A stretch of 12,735 bases of DNA from an uncultured Clostridia bacterium (GTDB lineage: Bacteria > Bacillota > Clostridia > Christensenellales > UBA1242), in assembly GCA_944363385.1 (NCBI GenBank), contig CALVUB010000016.1:1-12735 (forward strand). Direction: 5' to 3'. This document shows, piece by piece, positions 2,107 to 12,735 of the stretch. Position 1 is the first letter of the stretch. Each line of letters starts with the position of its first letter. A program made the position numbers and the translations under genes. Below the pieces are notes generated by a model. That model did not search any database, was not told where the DNA came from, and saw nothing but the letters and a program-made list of their open reading frames with translations.

Positions 2107-3096
2107 TTAATAGATTGCATTAATTTGGTTTATAAACTTGCTTAAATAGCAATCTTTATGAAGTAAAGTCTCATAAAAATAGTTGTTTATAGTGTCAAGA
2201 TAAACATCCGCATTTTCCAAATTGTTTGCATATGAATTTATGTTTGCCTTGTAAACATTTTGATAATCGTAAAAAGAAAATTGTGAAAGTGCTTCTTTAA
2301 GATGGCTTCTTTCTTTTACTAAAATCTGTTCAAGCTCTCTTAAAGCCACATATCTCTCACCTTTATTATTAGTTACTGAAACGCTACTTATATCTTGAAC
2401 CAGCTTAATCCATTCTGTTACACTGTCGTAATGGTTATTGCCTTCAACTTTTTCTCCTTTGCAAGAATCAAGAAGGAAAAGTCTGCAGTCGTCTGCAAGC
2501 GACAGTTTTACGGTGCTTAGATAAAAATTTGCTTGGTCTACGGTGATAGAAGCAAAATCAAAGTCTAATAATTTCATGTCATTGATTAAGGTGTTTTGCA
2601 TAGAAAGCGCAAAATCATATGCTTTATTGATAAAATCAATGCAAGCTTTTTGATAGGCAATTGCAAAACCATTATAATAAACAAAATTTGAAGAATTTGG
2701 CGCTGATTTGGTCATATCATCATATCGCTCTTGTGCTTCAACAAAAGCCTCGTCAAGCAAGGTAAGCTTTTGCTCAAGGTCGGCATAGTTATGATTTTGG
2801 GTATAATCTTCAAATTGCCAAACATTTGTTTTTAAATAATTCATCACAACTTGAACCATTGTTTGTTGACTTTCATCAATCGTTTCAAGTAAGCCATTCT
2901 CATTATATTTTTGAAAATTTTTAAAGGAATTGTAGGCATCGATAAAAGAAGTTTCTTGTTCTGTTTTTGTAACAAAATTCTGCATCTTTTGATAGACTTG
3001 TTCTGTTGTTGTGCCTTCACAACCAAATAATGCAAATGCACAAAGGGCAAGAAGCAGTGCAACTATCACTGATAAAAATTTTTTCGACTTAACCAT
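2107..3096 (-). CDS. Putative lipoprotein, 329 aa, unknown function
   Basis: Not recognised beyond its export signal. The N-terminus has a basic start (MVKSKKF), a hydrophobic stretch (residues 8-24) and a lipobox-like LFGC with Cys26, typical of a signal peptidase II lipoprotein; Phe at -2 is unusual but tolerated. Mature residues 27-329 look soluble, mostly helical and rich in aromatic residues, Asn and Asp, with no enzyme motif that I can see. It should be anchored on the outer face of the cytoplasmic membrane. Its start codon overlaps the stop of the upstream signal-anchored gene (TAATG), with a strong GGGAGG at 3103-3108 inside the end of that gene, so translational coupling is likely. 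The two products have similar length, composition and destination, suggesting partners. The adjacent genes for replication and translation do not reveal its role. Confidence 0.85.
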   Translation of the reverse strand: MVKSKKFLSVIVALLLALCAFALFGCEGTTTEQVYQKMQNFVTKTEQETSFIDAYNSFKNFQKYNENGLLETIDESQQTMVQVVMNYLKTNVWQFEDYTQNHNYADLEQKLTLLDEAFVEAQERYDDMTKSAPNSSNFVYYNGFAIAYQKACIDFINKAYDFALSMQNTLINDMKLLDFDFASITVDQANFYLSTVKLSLADDCRLFLLDSCKGEKVEGNNHYDSVTEWIKLVQDISSVSVTNNKGERYVALRELEQILVKERSHLKEALSQFSFYDYQNVYKANINSYANNLENADVYLDTINNYFYETLLHKDCYLSKFINQINAIY

Positions 3097-4058
3097 TATT
3101 TACCTCCCAAAAACCTTTTAAGCTGGTTATACACTCCAGCGCTATCTTCCACTTTTTCAAAAGTCAAAGTGAAAGTAATTGAAAGGCCGTTGCCATAAGC
3201 AGAATTAATTATAGGCCTAAAATTTGTTTGAGAATAAAGCTGATAGAAGTTGTTTATCGATTGATATTTAGATGAAATGCTTGAGTCAAAATAATAATCT
3301 TTAAATTCAGATTGATAGGATAGTTGTAGCATAATAATAAAAACATTAAAACCATCAACCACAGCTCCCGCTGAATAGTTATAATCGGCAATTGCACTGC
3401 TGGTTGTGTCCGCTTGAACAAGTTGGTCAAACTTATCGGAAAGCACTGCAACATAATCGGTTACTGCGCTGAAAGTAAGTTGTGAGCCTAGATTGTTTTC
3501 AAAACCGAAATAGCTTTCTCTAAAAATATTGTTAAATGAGCTAAAGGCGGTTTCAAAATTCGACAGCATCTCGGCAAAATCTGAACGCACTGAAATAATG
3601 CTTTCTCGCAAAAAATCAAGTGAAGTGGAGTCAAGTTCATCATTGACATATTTAAGCTTGTTTATTATGCTTTCTTTATAAGTTGCAAGATTGTTTAACG
3701 AATCTGTAACTGGATGATAATTATTGTAAAAATACTCATTTTCTTCAAAATAAGTAGAATAATCTGCATATTTATCAATCACAACTTCAATGTTTGACAA
3801 AACTTTTTCAATGTCTTCAAGCTCATCTGTATAAACATTTGCGTCGCTTTCTTGCACCATTTCTTCAAAGTTTGTATACAGCTGTTTGGTGTTTGCGTCT
3901 TTAAGCAAAAAGTTTTTTTGCTCGTTTTTAAGAGCAATAACAGCGCTGGCTGGATTGCCAGGCAAACACAAAATTACAGTTACCACAATGATAACAATCA
4001 AAACCAAGATTGCAATCACAATAAGCCATTTTTTATTGAACTTTTTTTCTTCTGCCAT
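3096..4058 (-). CDS. Signal-anchored extracytoplasmic protein, 320 aa, unknown function
   Basis: A lysine-rich N-terminus (MAEEKKFNKK) precedes one strongly hydrophobic helix (residues 11-32); the remaining ~288 residues are hydrophilic. By the positive-inside rule this is an N-in, C-out protein tethered to the membrane. Cys31 follows V-I-L rather than a small residue, so a lipobox is unlikely. The outer domain is predicted by eye to be mainly helical (many regularly spaced Leu, Phe and Tyr), ending in a short beta-like stretch (GLSITFTLTFEKV, near residues 292-304). I recognise no family. The start is supported by AAGGAG 6 bases upstream of the ATG. Only 12 bases separate it from the dnaB stop codon, and it overlaps the following lipoprotein gene by one base, so it is firmly in the same operon. 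It may form an extracytoplasmic pair with that lipoprotein (inference). Confidence 0.85.
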   Translation of the reverse strand: MAEEKKFNKKWLIVIAILVLIVIIVVTVILCLPGNPASAVIALKNEQKNFLLKDANTKQLYTNFEEMVQESDANVYTDELEDIEKVLSNIEVVIDKYADYSTYFEENEYFYNNYHPVTDSLNNLATYKESIINKLKYVNDELDSTSLDFLRESIISVRSDFAEMLSNFETAFSSFNNIFRESYFGFENNLGSQLTFSAVTDYVAVLSDKFDQLVQADTTSSAIADYNYSAGAVVDGFNVFIIMLQLSYQSEFKDYYFDSSISSKYQSINNFYQLYSQTNFRPIINSAYGNGLSITFTLTFEKVEDSAGVYNQLKRFLGGK

Positions 4059-7798: not shown

Positions 7799-10117
7799 TT
7801 ATTTTTTATTGTTTAAATCAGAAATCTCTTTAATAAGTTCTTCAAGACGCTTATTTATGTTTGCAAGTTCGGTTTCAGACTGATTTGTGTGTTTAACATT
7901 TTCAGCTTTTTCTTTCAAGTTTTCAACCGTCTTCATGATTTCATCTTTTTCCTTGTCAATTGCCTCTGTCTTCTCTCCGTTGACCACATCATCAATTTCT
8001 GAATTGATAAACGCCTTCATCTTATTAAGTTTTTCTTCTTCTTCTGAAATCAACTTACTGATTTGCGCTAGGGTTGGAGAATTCGTTTTTTTCGAGGCCG
8101 ATTTGGTTGAAGACTTAGCCGAGCTTGAACTTTTTTTCTTGGAAGAGCTTGGTTTCCTGCCTGCGGTTTTTTTGTAAGGGCTGCGTTTTTGACTAGGTTT
8201 TTCTGCTTCTTTCTCTTGTTTTTGAGCTTCTTTTTCCTCTTTTCTTGGTCGACCGCGCTTTTTAGCTTCCTTTGACTGCTCTGTTTCTACATTATTCTTT
8301 CGAGGTCTGCCTCTTTTCTTAGCAGGAGTTTCTGCTGTTAAAGTTTCGCTCTCCACAGTAGAAAGCTCTTCTGCTTTATCCTCAGCTTTTTCTTCCTCTT
8401 TTAACTCTGCCGTTTCTTCAGGTTGAGTTATATCTTTGCCAACTGAAGCGCCAAACTGCTCTGCAATCGCCTTTTCAATTTCTGCTTTATCTTCAGGATT
8501 TTCATTGTCTGGAAGTTCGAAATTCCCAAACTGATCATCTAAGATTTCCTTTTCTGTCTTCTCTTTTTCTTGTTCAATAATATTCCCATTTAAGTCATAA
8601 ACCACACCATCTTTGTCATGATACAAACCATTTGCATCGTGATAAGAGCCATCTTCATAAACATAGTTGCCCTTTTCATCATATTTGCCTGGCAAAGTTT
8701 CTGGTGCAACTTCTTTCCCCTCTTTTTCAAGTGCATTGCGAAGGGCTTCGTTTTCTTCTGCCAATCTTTTAAGTTGAGTTTGAACCACCATAAGTTGATT
8801 GTCACCTTCTGCAACTTTGCTACGAAGGTCTATCACTTCATTTTTAACCTTTTTCTCAGCCCTGCTCATTGAAACCTTTAAAACTTTCTCATAAAAGGCT
8901 TGATATTCTGCAAGCATTGCTTGCTCAACATCGATCTTAGACTCGTCAAGGTCTGCATGAAGTTCTTGCAGTTGTTTGTTAAGGTCATCATTTGAAATTG
9001 CAAATTGTGTTTCTTCCTGGTCATATTCTGACTGGAACTGCTCTTGTTTTGCTCTGTCCTGGTCTTGCCTTGTCTTTAAGAAAGTCACTTCCATACGATT
9101 TGTTGTTGCTTCTTGCTGTTGAAGAAGTTTGGCAATACTTTCTTTCATAGACTGAATTTTTTTCTGTAAATCTTTTTGCTTATTCTCATAATTTCGTTTT
9201 AAAGCTTCTTTTTGAGCTTCAATGTCAGCAATCTTTGAAAGAATGTTTTGCTTTTTGTTGATGTAGTCTTCACTTTCCTTCATTGCCCGCTCTAAGACAA
9301 GAGCGCCATCAACTCCAGCTTTTTCAAAGTTGTATTCAACATACTCAGTTTCTTTTTGTTTTGCTTTTTCAAATTCTTCCTTGGCCTTTCTAGCTTTAGC
9401 CTCATAAAATTCTCTAAGCTGAGGATTACCTCTAGTGATTTCCTTTTGAGTGAAAAGAAGTTCATAGTCAATATAATCAGGCAAATCAATGCTAGCATTT
9501 GTGATAAATCTTGCAAAGATATGATAATTTTGATAAATGTCATCAAGATTCATAACCCTTTTTGCTTTCAAAACAATTACTGTAAGCGCACCTATAACAA
9601 GCACTAAAGCAGGAACAATAAAGGCCATGGCAAAAAGATTGAGAGAAAAGGCTCTGCCTGCTTGAGCGGCAAATCCGAAAGGCAAGCACACAACCGACCA
9701 AATTGCAGTCAGTAAAATTAAATTTTTGACATTGCTTGTCCAACTGCTTGTTTTAAGAGGTTTATCAATCAAGTTTTCTTCTGACAGATAGTTTGTAGGC
9801 CCGCCTTCGCGAAACAATATAAACTGTTGCCAGTAATAGACAACTCGCTTGGTGCCTTTTTTGATAAGGTTGCTAAATTCTTTTATGTTGCCCTTGTCTA
9901 GCTTTTTGTTTTTAAAAAGCCAGTTGTTATATTTGACAAGTCCCCTCTTAAGTCTTGCCTCATAAGAAAAGGCAGATTTTAAAAGAAATAGCAAAATGAA
10001 AAACACTTCAACGCCAAGAGCAATGCCAATATAGCCTCCCAAACCTATCGCTGCGGTAAGTTGAGTAAAGAAAGCTGTTACAGCATCGCTAATATCGGCC
10101 AACATTGATACGAACAT
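7799..10117 (-). CDS. Membrane-anchored coiled-coil protein with two AT-hooks, 772 aa, unknown function
   Basis: Not a family I recognise. Residues are numbered from the ATG at 10117. Hydrophobic helices lie near 28-46, 133-154 and 162-183. Basic residues after helices 1 and 3 place the loop 47-132 and everything after 183 in the cytoplasm. Residues ~233-465 are rich in Glu, Lys, Gln and Leu and look like a long coiled coil. Residues 478-512 are five heptads of the form YxDxxGx, and 513-593 form an acidic linker. Two identical octapeptides KKRGRPRK (600-607 and 619-626) are textbook AT-hooks, which bind the minor groove of A/T-rich DNA. A Ser/Lys-rich patch with an SPYKK motif (near 646-680) resembles histone H1 tails, and a second coiled coil ends the protein. 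Start choice: a longer in-frame TTG at 10138 lies at the predicted transcription start, while the ATG at 10117 has AAGGAG 7 bases upstream. Own promoter and terminator make it a single-gene unit. A membrane-DNA tether is inference; RNA binding is an alternative. Confidence 0.9.
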   Translation of the reverse strand: MFVSMLADISDAVTAFFTQLTAAIGLGGYIGIALGVEVFFILLFLLKSAFSYEARLKRGLVKYNNWLFKNKKLDKGNIKEFSNLIKKGTKRVVYYWQQFILFREGGPTNYLSEENLIDKPLKTSSWTSNVKNLILLTAIWSVVCLPFGFAAQAGRAFSLNLFAMAFIVPALVLVIGALTVIVLKAKRVMNLDDIYQNYHIFARFITNASIDLPDYIDYELLFTQKEITRGNPQLREFYEAKARKAKEEFEKAKQKETEYVEYNFEKAGVDGALVLERAMKESEDYINKKQNILSKIADIEAQKEALKRNYENKQKDLQKKIQSMKESIAKLLQQQEATTNRMEVTFLKTRQDQDRAKQEQFQSEYDQEETQFAISNDDLNKQLQELHADLDESKIDVEQAMLAEYQAFYEKVLKVSMSRAEKKVKNEVIDLRSKVAEGDNQLMVVQTQLKRLAEENEALRNALEKEGKEVAPETLPGKYDEKGNYVYEDGSYHDANGLYHDKDGVVYDLNGNIIEQEKEKTEKEILDDQFGNFELPDNENPEDKAEIEKAIAEQFGASVGKDITQPEETAELKEEEKAEDKAEELSTVESETLTAETPAKKRGRPRKNNVETEQSKEAKKRGRPRKEEKEAQKQEKEAEKPSQKRSPYKKTAGRKPSSSKKKSSSSAKSSTKSASKKTNSPTLAQISKLISEEEEKLNKMKAFINSEIDDVVNGEKTEAIDKEKDEIMKTVENLKEKAENVKHTNQSETELANINKRLEELIKEISDLNNKK
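8240..8320 (-). other. Two AT-hook motifs, KKRGRPRK twice
   Basis: The octapeptide KKRGRPRK is encoded at 8297-8320 and again at 8240-8263, 19 codons apart start to start, joined by the short acidic linker NNVETEQSKEA. Both match the AT-hook core G-R-P with flanking basic residues. The two copies use different codons at several positions (AGA GGC AGA CCT CGA against CGC GGT CGA CCA AGA for RGRPR), so they are either an old duplication or kept identical by selection on the protein rather than a recent DNA duplication. Pairs of AT-hooks raise affinity for clustered A/T tracts in known proteins. Confidence 0.9.
8582..8686 (-). repeat. Five tandem heptads in the protein, consensus YxDxxGx
   Basis: The protein reads KYDEKGN, YVYEDGS, YHDANGL, YHDKDGV and VYDLNGN in uninterrupted succession, with Gly fixed at position 6, an acidic or Asn residue at position 5 in four of five units and aromatic residues at positions 1-2. 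At the DNA level the copies differ, so this is a protein repeat rather than a recent DNA expansion. Similar Tyr/Asp/Asn/Gly-rich repeats occur in Bacillota surface and structural proteins, but here the segment is predicted to be cytoplasmic, between the coiled coil and the AT-hooks. Function unknown. Confidence 0.85.
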
Positions 10118-10124
10118 AATTTCA

Positions 10125-10130
10125 CTCCTT
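10125..10130 (-). promoter_or_regulatory. Ribosome binding site that fixes the start of the AT-hook protein
   Basis: AAGGAG on the minus strand, 7 bases before the ATG at 10115-10117. The only longer in-frame start (TTG at 10136-10138) has no such site upstream, because the promoter -10 box begins 2 bases further up. Confidence 0.88.
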
Positions 10131-10140
10131 TTTCGCAATT

Positions 10141-10168
10141 AGTATAACACATAAAAATTATTTTACAA
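10141..10168 (-). promoter_or_regulatory. Promoter of the AT-hook membrane protein gene
   Basis: On the minus strand a TATACT -10 box (10141-10146) preceded by TGT gives an extended -10, with TTGTAA (10163-10168) as a fair -35 at a 16-base spacing. Transcription would start near 10134, leaving a leader of about 17 bases. The region just upstream (10169-10230) is made largely of A and T tracts, the kind of sequence AT-hooks bind, so self-regulation is possible but not shown. Confidence 0.75.
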
Positions 10169-10308: not shown

Positions 10309-12735
10309 TTAAAATTCAATTATTTTTGCATTTTTTAAGGAGAGCAGATATTTTTTAATCACCTTATTTGGATAAGCCTTTGAAAGAGCGCTCTCATAAA
10401 GGTCAAGTTGAGGCTTGTATCTTTCTTTCAAAATTTTCTCATCATTTTGAGAAGTATATTTATAATCAATCAGCACTATTTCCCTTTCGTTTACTGAAAA
10501 AAAGTCTATAGCGCCCTGCACAACAATTTCATCATCAGTTTGATTAAGTGGCATGCTCATAACAAACTGTTTTTCCTTATATACCTGGCCTTTTCCACTA
10601 ACTGATTTTATAAGCGAAATATTTTGATATAATTTATTTTTATCAATAAACTCCAAACTTTCCAAAAGTTGTCTGTCACGAGAAATCTCTTTTTCAAGTT
10701 CTTCAAGAGTGTTTATTTTTTCAAAATCAAGCTTCTCAAGCGCTAAATGCACAGCATTTCCCTGCAAAATGCTCTTCTCGCGCAAAATCGTTCCTCGCTC
10801 AGACAATATCTCTTTACTCGCGAAATCTTTTTCTTCATTTGCAAGCATAGTCACTGAATTTTTAAGCTCTACCATTTCTTTTAGACCTGAGTAAGTTTGA
10901 TTTATCAATAATGCTCTGACTTTTTCCTCATCAAAGCTAATCAAATTTTCTTTTTTAGAAGCAATTTTCTCCTCTTGTTCCTCTTTCACGATTTTAACAG
11001 AAAAGTTTGCCATTTGAAGTTCTCCGTCAATTGCGAGCCTTTCTGTTACGCCATTTCCAAGAGTGAAAAACAAAAAATCAAAGTAAGTAGAGCATTCCTC
11101 TGGTTTTGTTTTTGCTTGAAGAATTGTTTGCGTGCCACAAAGAATAAGATGATTTTTGGCACGAGTGAGTGCAACATAGAAAATCATAAGCTCGTCAACA
11201 AAATTCTTCTGTTTTGCTTCAAGCCTTATTGCTCTTAAAACAGGAGAGATGCTTTTTGTTAAAGTTACATCGTCATAAACATTTGTGCCAAACCCAAACC
11301 TTTTTGAAATTGCATATGGATTTGTGCTAGGTCTGTCAAAGTTCTCTCCACAGCTGGCTAAAATTACAATAGGATATTCAAGTCCTTTCGTTGCATGTAT
11401 TGTGGTCAAAAGAACAGAGTTTTCAGCTTGACCGATTTGTGTTGTTTTTACATCCAAATTTTCAAAACCTTCAACAATCGCCTGAAGATTGAAGTCTGCC
11501 TGAGCCGAGCTGATAAAATTGTAAAATTGCTCAACACACTGCCTGTCTTCATTGATATTTGCAGAAAATTTTTCGAAAAAGTGGGTTTGTGAAATTGTCT
11601 GTTTAAGCGCCTTGATAACACCATACAAGCCACAGTTAAAAGCGAAATTATCTAAAAACTGGTAAAATTTTTCAATTTTTTGATTGTTTTGCCTCAATTT
11701 TTCAATTTTTTCATAAAATTTACCTTCACTTGATATTGAAATAGAAGAAAGCTCGTCAAGCGAAAATTCGCCAAAAGGAGAATGCATTACTGACGCTAAA
11801 GAAATATCGTCTTTAGAAGAAATTGCAAGTTTTATAAGAGCGCACAAAACTTTGACTGCATTGTTATCAAAAAGCGAATTTTTCGAATCGGTGATAACAC
11901 TTATGCCAGCTTGCATCAAAAGTCTGTAACACTCTTGCATTACGCTGTTTCTGTTTCTAAATAAAATTGCAATATCTTGAGGCTTTACTTGGTCAAAGCT
12001 GTCAGTTTTTTCATTATAAATTTTGCCTGCCAAAAATTCTTTCACCCTTTTGACGATTTCTTTTGCTTCAATTTTGCCTATATTTTTGTTGGAAAGAGGA
12101 TCTTTGGTTATATCATAAATTTCGGCAGTTTGTTCTTGTTCTTCTTGATTTTCTTGACAAATTAACACTTGCACTGCCTCTTGCCCATCAAATTTAAACT
12201 CTTTTTCTCCTTTAAACATCGATGTTTCTTTATAGTCCACACCAGACGAAGCTGTTGTCATCACTTTTTCGAAAACAAAATTGACAAAGTTAAGAATTTT
12301 TTTATCGCTTCTAAAATTGGATTTTAAAAACAACGCTTCTGAATTTTCATCAGCTGAAAAATCTGAGATGTCTTTGAGCATAATATCCATGCTGGCATTT
12401 CTAAACCCATAAATGCCTTGTTTTATGTCGCCCACTGCAACAAACATACCCTTTTGAGCAATAGGTTTTATAATTGCCTCTTGCAAGGAATTGGTGTCTT
12501 GATACTCATCTATAAAAATATAGTCATAACTTTCTTGTAAAGAAGACAAAACTTCATCGTCGCCAAGAAGAGTTTTCGTTATCTTTTCGGCATCAGCAAA
12601 ATCAATAACATCTTGATTTTGTTTGATTTTTACATAATTTTGTTTAAAATTTTGATAAAATTTCAAAATTGCATTGCCAAGAGTGTTTAACTTTTGTTTT
12701 TGCAGTGAAAGTGGAGAAAAATCATATTGCACAAG
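10309..12735 (-). CDS. addA: AddA, helicase-nuclease subunit of AddAB (5' end outside the window)
   Basis: UvrD-type 3'-5' helicase with a C-terminal RecB-family nuclease; with AddB it resects double-strand breaks and loads RecA. Residues are counted from the Val (GTG) codon at 12732. Motif II is FIDEYQDTN (73-81), motif III VAVGDIKQGIYGFR (98-111), motif IV LKSNFRSD (136-143), motif V TTIHATKGLEYPIVI (443-457) and motif VI IFYVALTRAK (517-526). The nuclease has its conserved His in GNAVHLALEKLD (His662), Asp743 in QGAIDFF, Asp756-Tyr-Lys758 and Gln775 to Tyr779 in QLDLY, so both activities look intact. The reading frame is open to the window edge; AddA is usually about 1,200 residues, so some 400 N-terminal residues with Walker A lie outside, probably after addB (inference). 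The stop codon is followed by 140 bases with no convincing terminator before the next promoter. Confidence 0.96.
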   Translation of the reverse strand, partial: LVQYDFSPLSLQKQKLNTLGNAILKFYQNFKQNYVKIKQNQDVIDFADAEKITKTLLGDDEVLSSLQESYDYIFIDEYQDTNSLQEAIIKPIAQKGMFVAVGDIKQGIYGFRNASMDIMLKDISDFSADENSEALFLKSNFRSDKKILNFVNFVFEKVMTTASSGVDYKETSMFKGEKEFKFDGQEAVQVLICQENQEEQEQTAEIYDITKDPLSNKNIGKIEAKEIVKRVKEFLAGKIYNEKTDSFDQVKPQDIAILFRNRNSVMQECYRLLMQAGISVITDSKNSLFDNNAVKVLCALIKLAISSKDDISLASVMHSPFGEFSLDELSSISISSEGKFYEKIEKLRQNNQKIEKFYQFLDNFAFNCGLYGVIKALKQTISQTHFFEKFSANINEDRQCVEQFYNFISSAQADFNLQAIVEGFENLDVKTTQIGQAENSVLLTTIHATKGLEYPIVILASCGENFDRPSTNPYAISKRFGFGTNVYDDVTLTKSISPVLRAIRLEAKQKNFVDELMIFYVALTRAKNHLILCGTQTILQAKTKPEECSTYFDFLFFTLGNGVTERLAIDGELQMANFSVKIVKEEQEEKIASKKENLISFDEEKVRALLINQTYSGLKEMVELKNSVTMLANEEKDFASKEILSERGTILREKSILQGNAVHLALEKLDFEKINTLEELEKEISRDRQLLESLEFIDKNKLYQNISLIKSVSGKGQVYKEKQFVMSMPLNQTDDEIVVQGAIDFFSVNEREIVLIDYKYTSQNDEKILKERYKPQLDLYESALSKAYPNKVIKKYLLSLKNAKIIEF

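Follow-up and report, generated by a model that had tools for sequence, protein, structure and literature searches.

The window analysed here is a 12,735-nucleotide stretch from an uncultured Clostridia bacterium (contig CALVUB010000016.1), and its gene at 7799..10117 on the minus strand encodes a 772-amino-acid (aa) membrane protein consisting of a ZorA-like core, a helical arm and an AT-hook tail. As judged from structure models, the membrane part is of the MotA/TolQ/ExbB/ZorA fold and closest to ZorA of the Zorya system. On balance, and with modest confidence, we favour the reading that this is a motor-less ring subunit of the ZorA/TolQ/ExbB/MotA type, in which arrayed AT-hooks together with a lysine-rich patch would make a multivalent nucleoid-membrane tether. 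The core with its three transmembrane (TM) segments would be embedded in the cytoplasmic membrane, where it would probably form an oligomeric ring, and the long helical arm would extend into the cytosol and end in the hooks and the patch. These would hold A/T-rich chromosomal DNA and so tie the nucleoid to the membrane. If five two-hook chains formed a pentamer, each ring would carry a dose of ten or more hooks.

The open reading frame (ORF) starts with the ATG at 10117-10115 and ends with the stop codon at 7799-7801, and the strand and coordinates given for it in the original prediction were correct. All parts of the gene described below are on the minus strand.

A predicted ZorA-type membrane core, apparently without motor features

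When the window protein was examined by hydropathy, three TM peaks were observed (residues 28-46, 133-151 and 165-183), and the AlphaFold2 (AF2) models agreed, in line with the three hydrophobic N-terminal helices first proposed. A crude hydropathy scan of the first 260 residues in 113 orthologues gave three peaks in 60, four in 41, five in 11 and two in one; in relatives, such a scan splits some peaks and fuses others, and the window protein together with the AF2 models is the basis for the count of three. TM1 (residues about 25-48; 9974..10045), defined by hydropathy and models, has its N-terminus predicted outside. It is followed by a cytosolic loop of 83 residues (49-131; 9725..9973) with the conserved motifs SYE..L.R, W96, PS.Y and PLKTSS. 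Because this loop is basic (17 K/R against 7 D/E), the loop and the C-terminus are predicted to be cytosolic, as the original prediction had also read from the basic loops; a tail outside the cell is disfavoured by the loop charge and by the fold. TM2 (132-152; 9662..9724) is poorly conserved and without a GTxxG-type motor motif, and TM3 with its helical continuation covers residues 160-190 of helix 159-208 by hydropathy and AF2 (9548..9640). The AF2 model of the window protein (54 sequences, mean predicted local distance difference test score 76.6) has core helices at residues 2-49, 52-69, 78-86, 90-102, 113-122, 125-151 and 159-208. This predicted arrangement, with three TM segments, a cytosolic TM1-TM2 loop of ~85 residues and a cytosolic C-terminus, matches the A-subunit layout of MotA, TolQ, ExbB and ZorA.

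ZorA was the top structural and profile match of the core, and many of the following rows were ExbB, TolQ and PomA chains. By its modelled fold the protein is thus a member of the ZorA/TolQ/ExbB/MotA superfamily. Kinship with this superfamily in sequence is likely, on the basis of one bridging protein and weak profile matches. The core profile matched ZorA of the PDB at an E-value of 0.0012 and the bridging protein, which is ZorA-like and encoded next to a ZorB-like gene (L202), at 2.1e-13 (hhalign 95.6%). PADLOC ZorA gave weak matches to at most five of the 54 members, and coiled-coil families matched there as well. Two results count against the sequence kinship: hhalign of the core with 15 clostridial MotA-like members gave only 1.1%, and PF01618 matched neither the window protein (E≤1) nor the 54 members of alignment A2 (E≤0.05). 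No PF01618 match was shown in eight f1 genomes either, and the profile comparison gave no support for clostridial MotA-like proteins as the nearest kin. Pfam and NCBIfam returned nothing for the protein beyond AT_hook and scattered weak matches, and among the 433 homologues found in 7996 scored candidates, the 120 listed ones had no informative names.

The bridging gene pair (L202:1414-3572, plus strand; genome G571, outside the order and in the same class) appears to be a divergent Zorya-like pair. Its ZorA-like protein has no Pfam MotA_ExbB match, the pair adjoins a gene read as shikimate-dehydrogenase-like, and no relatives were found in the viral contigs searched.

In Zorya, an aspartate of ZorB packs against a Ser/Thr ring of ZorA, and the cytoplasmic extension of ZorA is required for defence (both from excerpts of PMC11890865). 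In the 54-row core alignment of the present family, no Ser/Thr column at ≥40% and no conserved polar or GT ion-path residues were observed in TM2 and TM3. Within the core, mean conservation is lowest in the TM segments (0.40, 0.35 and 0.39 for TM1, TM2 and TM3) and highest in the cytosolic loop (0.58) and the stretch after TM3 (0.66), whereas the clostridial control shows the opposite pattern (TM2 0.69 and TM3 0.60, above the loop at 0.54). OmpA and MotB_plug had no match at E≤0.001 in 25 genus genomes, a genome-wide search that did not include the ExbD (PF02472) and ZorB models. No B-subunit gene (MotB, ZorB or ExbD) is a conserved neighbour, as only AddA and AddB groups are conserved around the loci. 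It is because of the missing conserved ion-path residues and the missing OmpA and MotB_plug matches that we call the protein motor-less; it is apparently a motor-less ZorA-type subunit. The neighbourhoods show AddA upstream and varying genes downstream, zorC, zorD and zorE not having been searched by model, and on this sequence evidence the protein is not shown to belong to a Zorya system or to be a motor subunit. A match to a well-studied family had been named as grounds for giving up the tether idea. The ZorA/TolQ/ExbB fold is indeed such a match, but since the tested motor features of that family are absent here, it redirects the idea and does not refute it.

ZorA, the A-subunit of the 5:2 ion-driven complex of anti-phage Zorya, shares with the window protein the three-TM core with its long loop in the cytosol, and a cytoplasmic tail that is helical and long. 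The window protein differs from it in having no conserved TM2/TM3 ion-path residues and no conserved ZorB-like neighbour, in being encoded by a chromosomal gene that is syntenic across the order, and in its AT-hook tail. With TolQ, ExbB and MotA-PomA, which act with B-subunits as ion-driven complexes, fold and topology are common.

Conservation and distribution of the AT-hook tail

The core continues into a long helical arm in the AF2 model (residues 269-463; 8729..9313), made of helices 269-337 and 341-463. The long coiled coil of the original prediction corresponds to these two modelled helices, heptads not having been scored. The two octapeptides KKRGRPRK lie at residues 600-607 (8297..8320) and 619-626 (8240..8263) and are followed by a Ser/Lys-rich basic patch (641-680; 8078..8197) predicted to be disordered; all three fall in an AF2-disordered stretch. 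The identical octapeptides, the patch and the order of membrane part, arm and hooks were thus found as originally described. Pfam AT_hook (PF02178) matched the protein in two stretches with 21.4 bits, above its cut-off of 17.4.

The hooks are not a product of chance, as several sequence comparisons indicate. When the composition was preserved and the residues were shuffled, the two [RK]GRP cores in the last 330 aa were reached in 0 of 2000 shuffles. Although identical in amino acids, the two octapeptides of the window have different bases at 9 of 24 positions; across seven close orthologues the base differences range from 0 to 9, the pair of locus L003 being identical in DNA. Differences among these seven chosen orthologues affect 8% of residues and 24% of bases in the hooks, against 58% and 48% in the linker between them. 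In the 113 loci, 384 cores were counted in the C-terminal third of the protein sequences, with a median spacing of 19 residues (234 of 313 gaps at 17-22), and the largest array has 11 cores, ten of them strict. An R precedes GRP in 285 of the 384 cores, and RK or KK follows in 369. Low-complexity accident as the origin of the hooks was ruled out by the shuffles, by spacing and consensus, and by the constraint on hooks relative to linker. General proteome noise was ruled out for the genus: all 96 AT_hook matches listed at E≤1 in 37 genus genomes sit in this gene. Four of these genomes have no AT_hook match, three of them without a match to the protein, the fourth (G009) carrying the cut locus L024. 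Binding of A/T-rich DNA by the tail is inferred from the motif and its conservation.

Of the 37 genus genomes, 34 gave a match to the protein; at family level the figures are 103 of 147 genomes and 31 of 42 genera. Genus counts refer to loci from four named contigs and from 30 of the 34 genus genomes with a match, family counts to 79 loci from protein matches, and those for other families to 18 of 30 matches that were read. Rows L031, L034 and L037 were dropped (same contigs as L002, L003 and L007), L102 had no match in the neighbourhood analysis, and L024 and L186 were left out of alignments A1 and A5, respectively. All 34 genus orthologues carry hooks with a GRP core, with at least one strict [RK]GRP core in 32 and at least two GRP cores in 33; the remaining row is L024, a cut locus that shows two PGRP cores once taken in full (L231).

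A tree was drawn from the first 420 residues of the 113 rows (short search, midpoint root); the fork of 73 rows had a support of 91 and is drawn open. On one side of the tree, 68 of 73 rows have at least two cores. The five exceptions are L024, which is cut, L054 at a contig end, L060 with an assembly gap after which hooks are visible, and L076 and L103, two hookless rows on long branches. On the other side, 37 of 40 rows have no core and three have one; contig ends truncate three of these 40 rows. The core profile also finds relatives in 30 genomes from other families of the order. The 18 order-level relatives that were read align with the family by hhalign at 99.6% (E 4.9e-25); they include none with a GRP core, and 14 of the 18 tails are net negative. 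The expectation that orthologues keep the hooks therefore holds in the genus and fails on the other side of the tree and at order level.

A tail stretch with a net charge of +10 in 40 residues occurs in 58 of 67 hooked proteins, in 21 of 39 relatives with fewer than two cores and in 18 of 165 neighbouring proteins, excluding rows cut at the 3' end or shorter than 560 aa. Many of the basic tails are (S/T)KK, (PA)KK or RGR repeats, which appear histone-H1-like on reading. A profile search of 23 genomes added eight divergent family members, from eight of these genomes. Two divergent family members right after AddA (L213:742-2133 and L217:838-2127, both minus strand) have a single KRGRGRPKK just before the C-terminal helix, below the Pfam reporting limit applied; the hooks may thus be older or have been gained again.

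The AT-hook is also the DNA-binding element of CarD of Myxococcus and of HMGA, which are soluble; the window protein differs from them by its membrane part. No bacterial protein of this architecture was described in the literature sources used, which are thin on subscription papers and give titles and openings of abstracts. Rv3852 of M. tuberculosis is described in part of PMC8233713 as a membrane-anchored, DNA-binding nucleoid protein. The analogy would be one of working; its anchor is a single C-terminal TM helix, and it is confined to few mycobacteria (same source). Plastid MFP1 and PEND bind DNA and are proposed, in part of PMC4154389, to anchor nucleoids to the thylakoid or envelope membrane, and MFP1 has a coiled-coil structure according to the title of a work cited there. 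Being plant proteins with other DNA-binding parts, they are analogues only. If the tether reading is true, it joins a defence and motor fold to chromosome anchoring, with a ZorA-type membrane assembly carrying its own DNA-binding arm. It would bear on nucleoid-membrane attachment outside model organisms and on the origin of Zorya-like parts, and would offer a testable reason why a membrane-protein gene travels with addA.

Linkage to addA and alternative roles

Of the 113 loci, 102 have AddA directly upstream and on the same strand (33 of 34 in the genus and 69 of 79 in the others); two of the eleven loci without it, L070 and L091, stop where their contig ends. The linkage extends to the order-level relatives found by profile alone (17 of 18) and to all eight further family members, which sit directly after AddA. 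When 83 loci were compared, the AddA group was constant (77 ORFs in 73 loci), and the next was a group of median 136 aa two genes upstream (56 loci), which reads as AddB. No downstream group occurred in more than 25 of the 83 loci. The linkage suggests a possible role around DNA ends. One elaboration of the tether reading, which we offer tentatively and would not yet back, is that the protein is a housekeeping relative of the Zorya motor, in which a ZorA-type ring lost its ion path and stator and gained hook arrays, and that it anchors the AT-rich chromosome, broken ends or phage DNA beside AddAB.

A closer association, in which the protein would be a partner of AddAB, is unlikely in our estimate. 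It would then act as a membrane platform handing broken or incoming (phage) DNA to AddAB, a chromosomal parallel of Zorya free of a B-subunit. The constancy of AddA upstream, in the distant relatives as in the family, together with the lack of a constant downstream gene, speaks for it. However, a conserved promoter-like box belongs to the gene itself: the extended -10 element TGTTATACT is found at 10141..10149, and the pattern TGNTA[TC][AG][ACT]T (TGNTATACT-like) was present in 34 of 34 genus loci and 92 of 113 family loci, against 10.6 expected from shuffles (scan from -100 to +60 of the chosen ATG). In genus g36 (six loci) and in G087 and G091 the gene lies elsewhere although AddA is present in the genome, and gene order can persist without joint function. 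Among 12 genomes without the gene (by protein and core profile), seven have AddA, and no full-length match to it was found in the other five (G003, G012, G175, G099 and G133). Joint loss with AddA was abandoned as proof that the two work together, as these genomes had been picked for absence of the gene and 7 of 12 have AddA.

In seven genomes without a core match, other genes occupy the region after addA (L221-L227). In four such family genomes (L222, L224, L225 and L226), a multi-TM protein of 146-160 aa ending in EEF or TEF is found on either strand, beside addA or one gene off.

That the tail binds mRNA or ribosomes rather than DNA, and keeps translation or transcripts near the membrane, is improbable. 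Lysine-rich tails also bind RNA, and Rho proteins from this order carry RGRP-type segments; against this, the cores fit the AT-hook consensus in the residues on both sides of GRP, and the window protein scores above the Pfam cut-off for AT_hook. The Rho segments are AT-hook-like and were seen in two termination factors examined from other families of the order (L228:1080-2960 and L230:1112-2875, both plus strand). Another such segment is at the C-terminus of a GalT-family enzyme, also from another family (L229:1484-3199, minus strand).

Least probable of all is a scaffold role in envelope or cell shape through arm and ring, with the basic tail as an interchangeable charged linker: the loop and post-TM3 stretch are conserved better than the rest of the core (0.58-0.66), and across the order the tail may carry hooks, be rich in lysine or be acidic, but the hook peptides are far more constrained than the linkers and persist almost throughout the hook side of a deep tree.

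Other features of the window and the protein

A Shine-Dalgarno-like AAGGAG was read directly just 5' of the ATG (10125..10130, minus strand). The conserved upstream neighbour addA, a helicase-nuclease subunit on the same strand, spans 10309..12735 and runs off the window. Downstream of the 772-aa gene are typA, a small membrane ORF, dnaB, two anchored or secreted-looking ORFs and gltX; Pfam supplied names for some neighbours, and the remaining names were assigned by reading the sequences. The two ORFs between dnaB and gltX (2107-4058, minus strand) encode an adjacent lipoprotein-like and single-pass anchored protein of no clear family, each seen in four compared loci, many loci being too short to show them. 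Genomes of this host lineage of Clostridia are about 1 Mb.

Near the end of the 772-aa protein, C-terminal helices 683-744 and 748-771 (7805..8071) align across the 33 genus rows of A1 without exception. Between arm and hooks lies an aromatic YD..G repeat region (476-512; 8582..8692), modelled as short strands over 478-514 and followed by mostly low-confidence disorder over 517-679. We take this repeat to resemble OCRE-type repeats; OCRE had no Pfam match at E≤0.05 in a scan of family members. When a simple pattern (YD..G.Y..DG.Y.D..G) was used, one to several copies were found in 64 of 113 relatives, with hooks or not, and the repeat is also present in L076, L103, L105 and L068.
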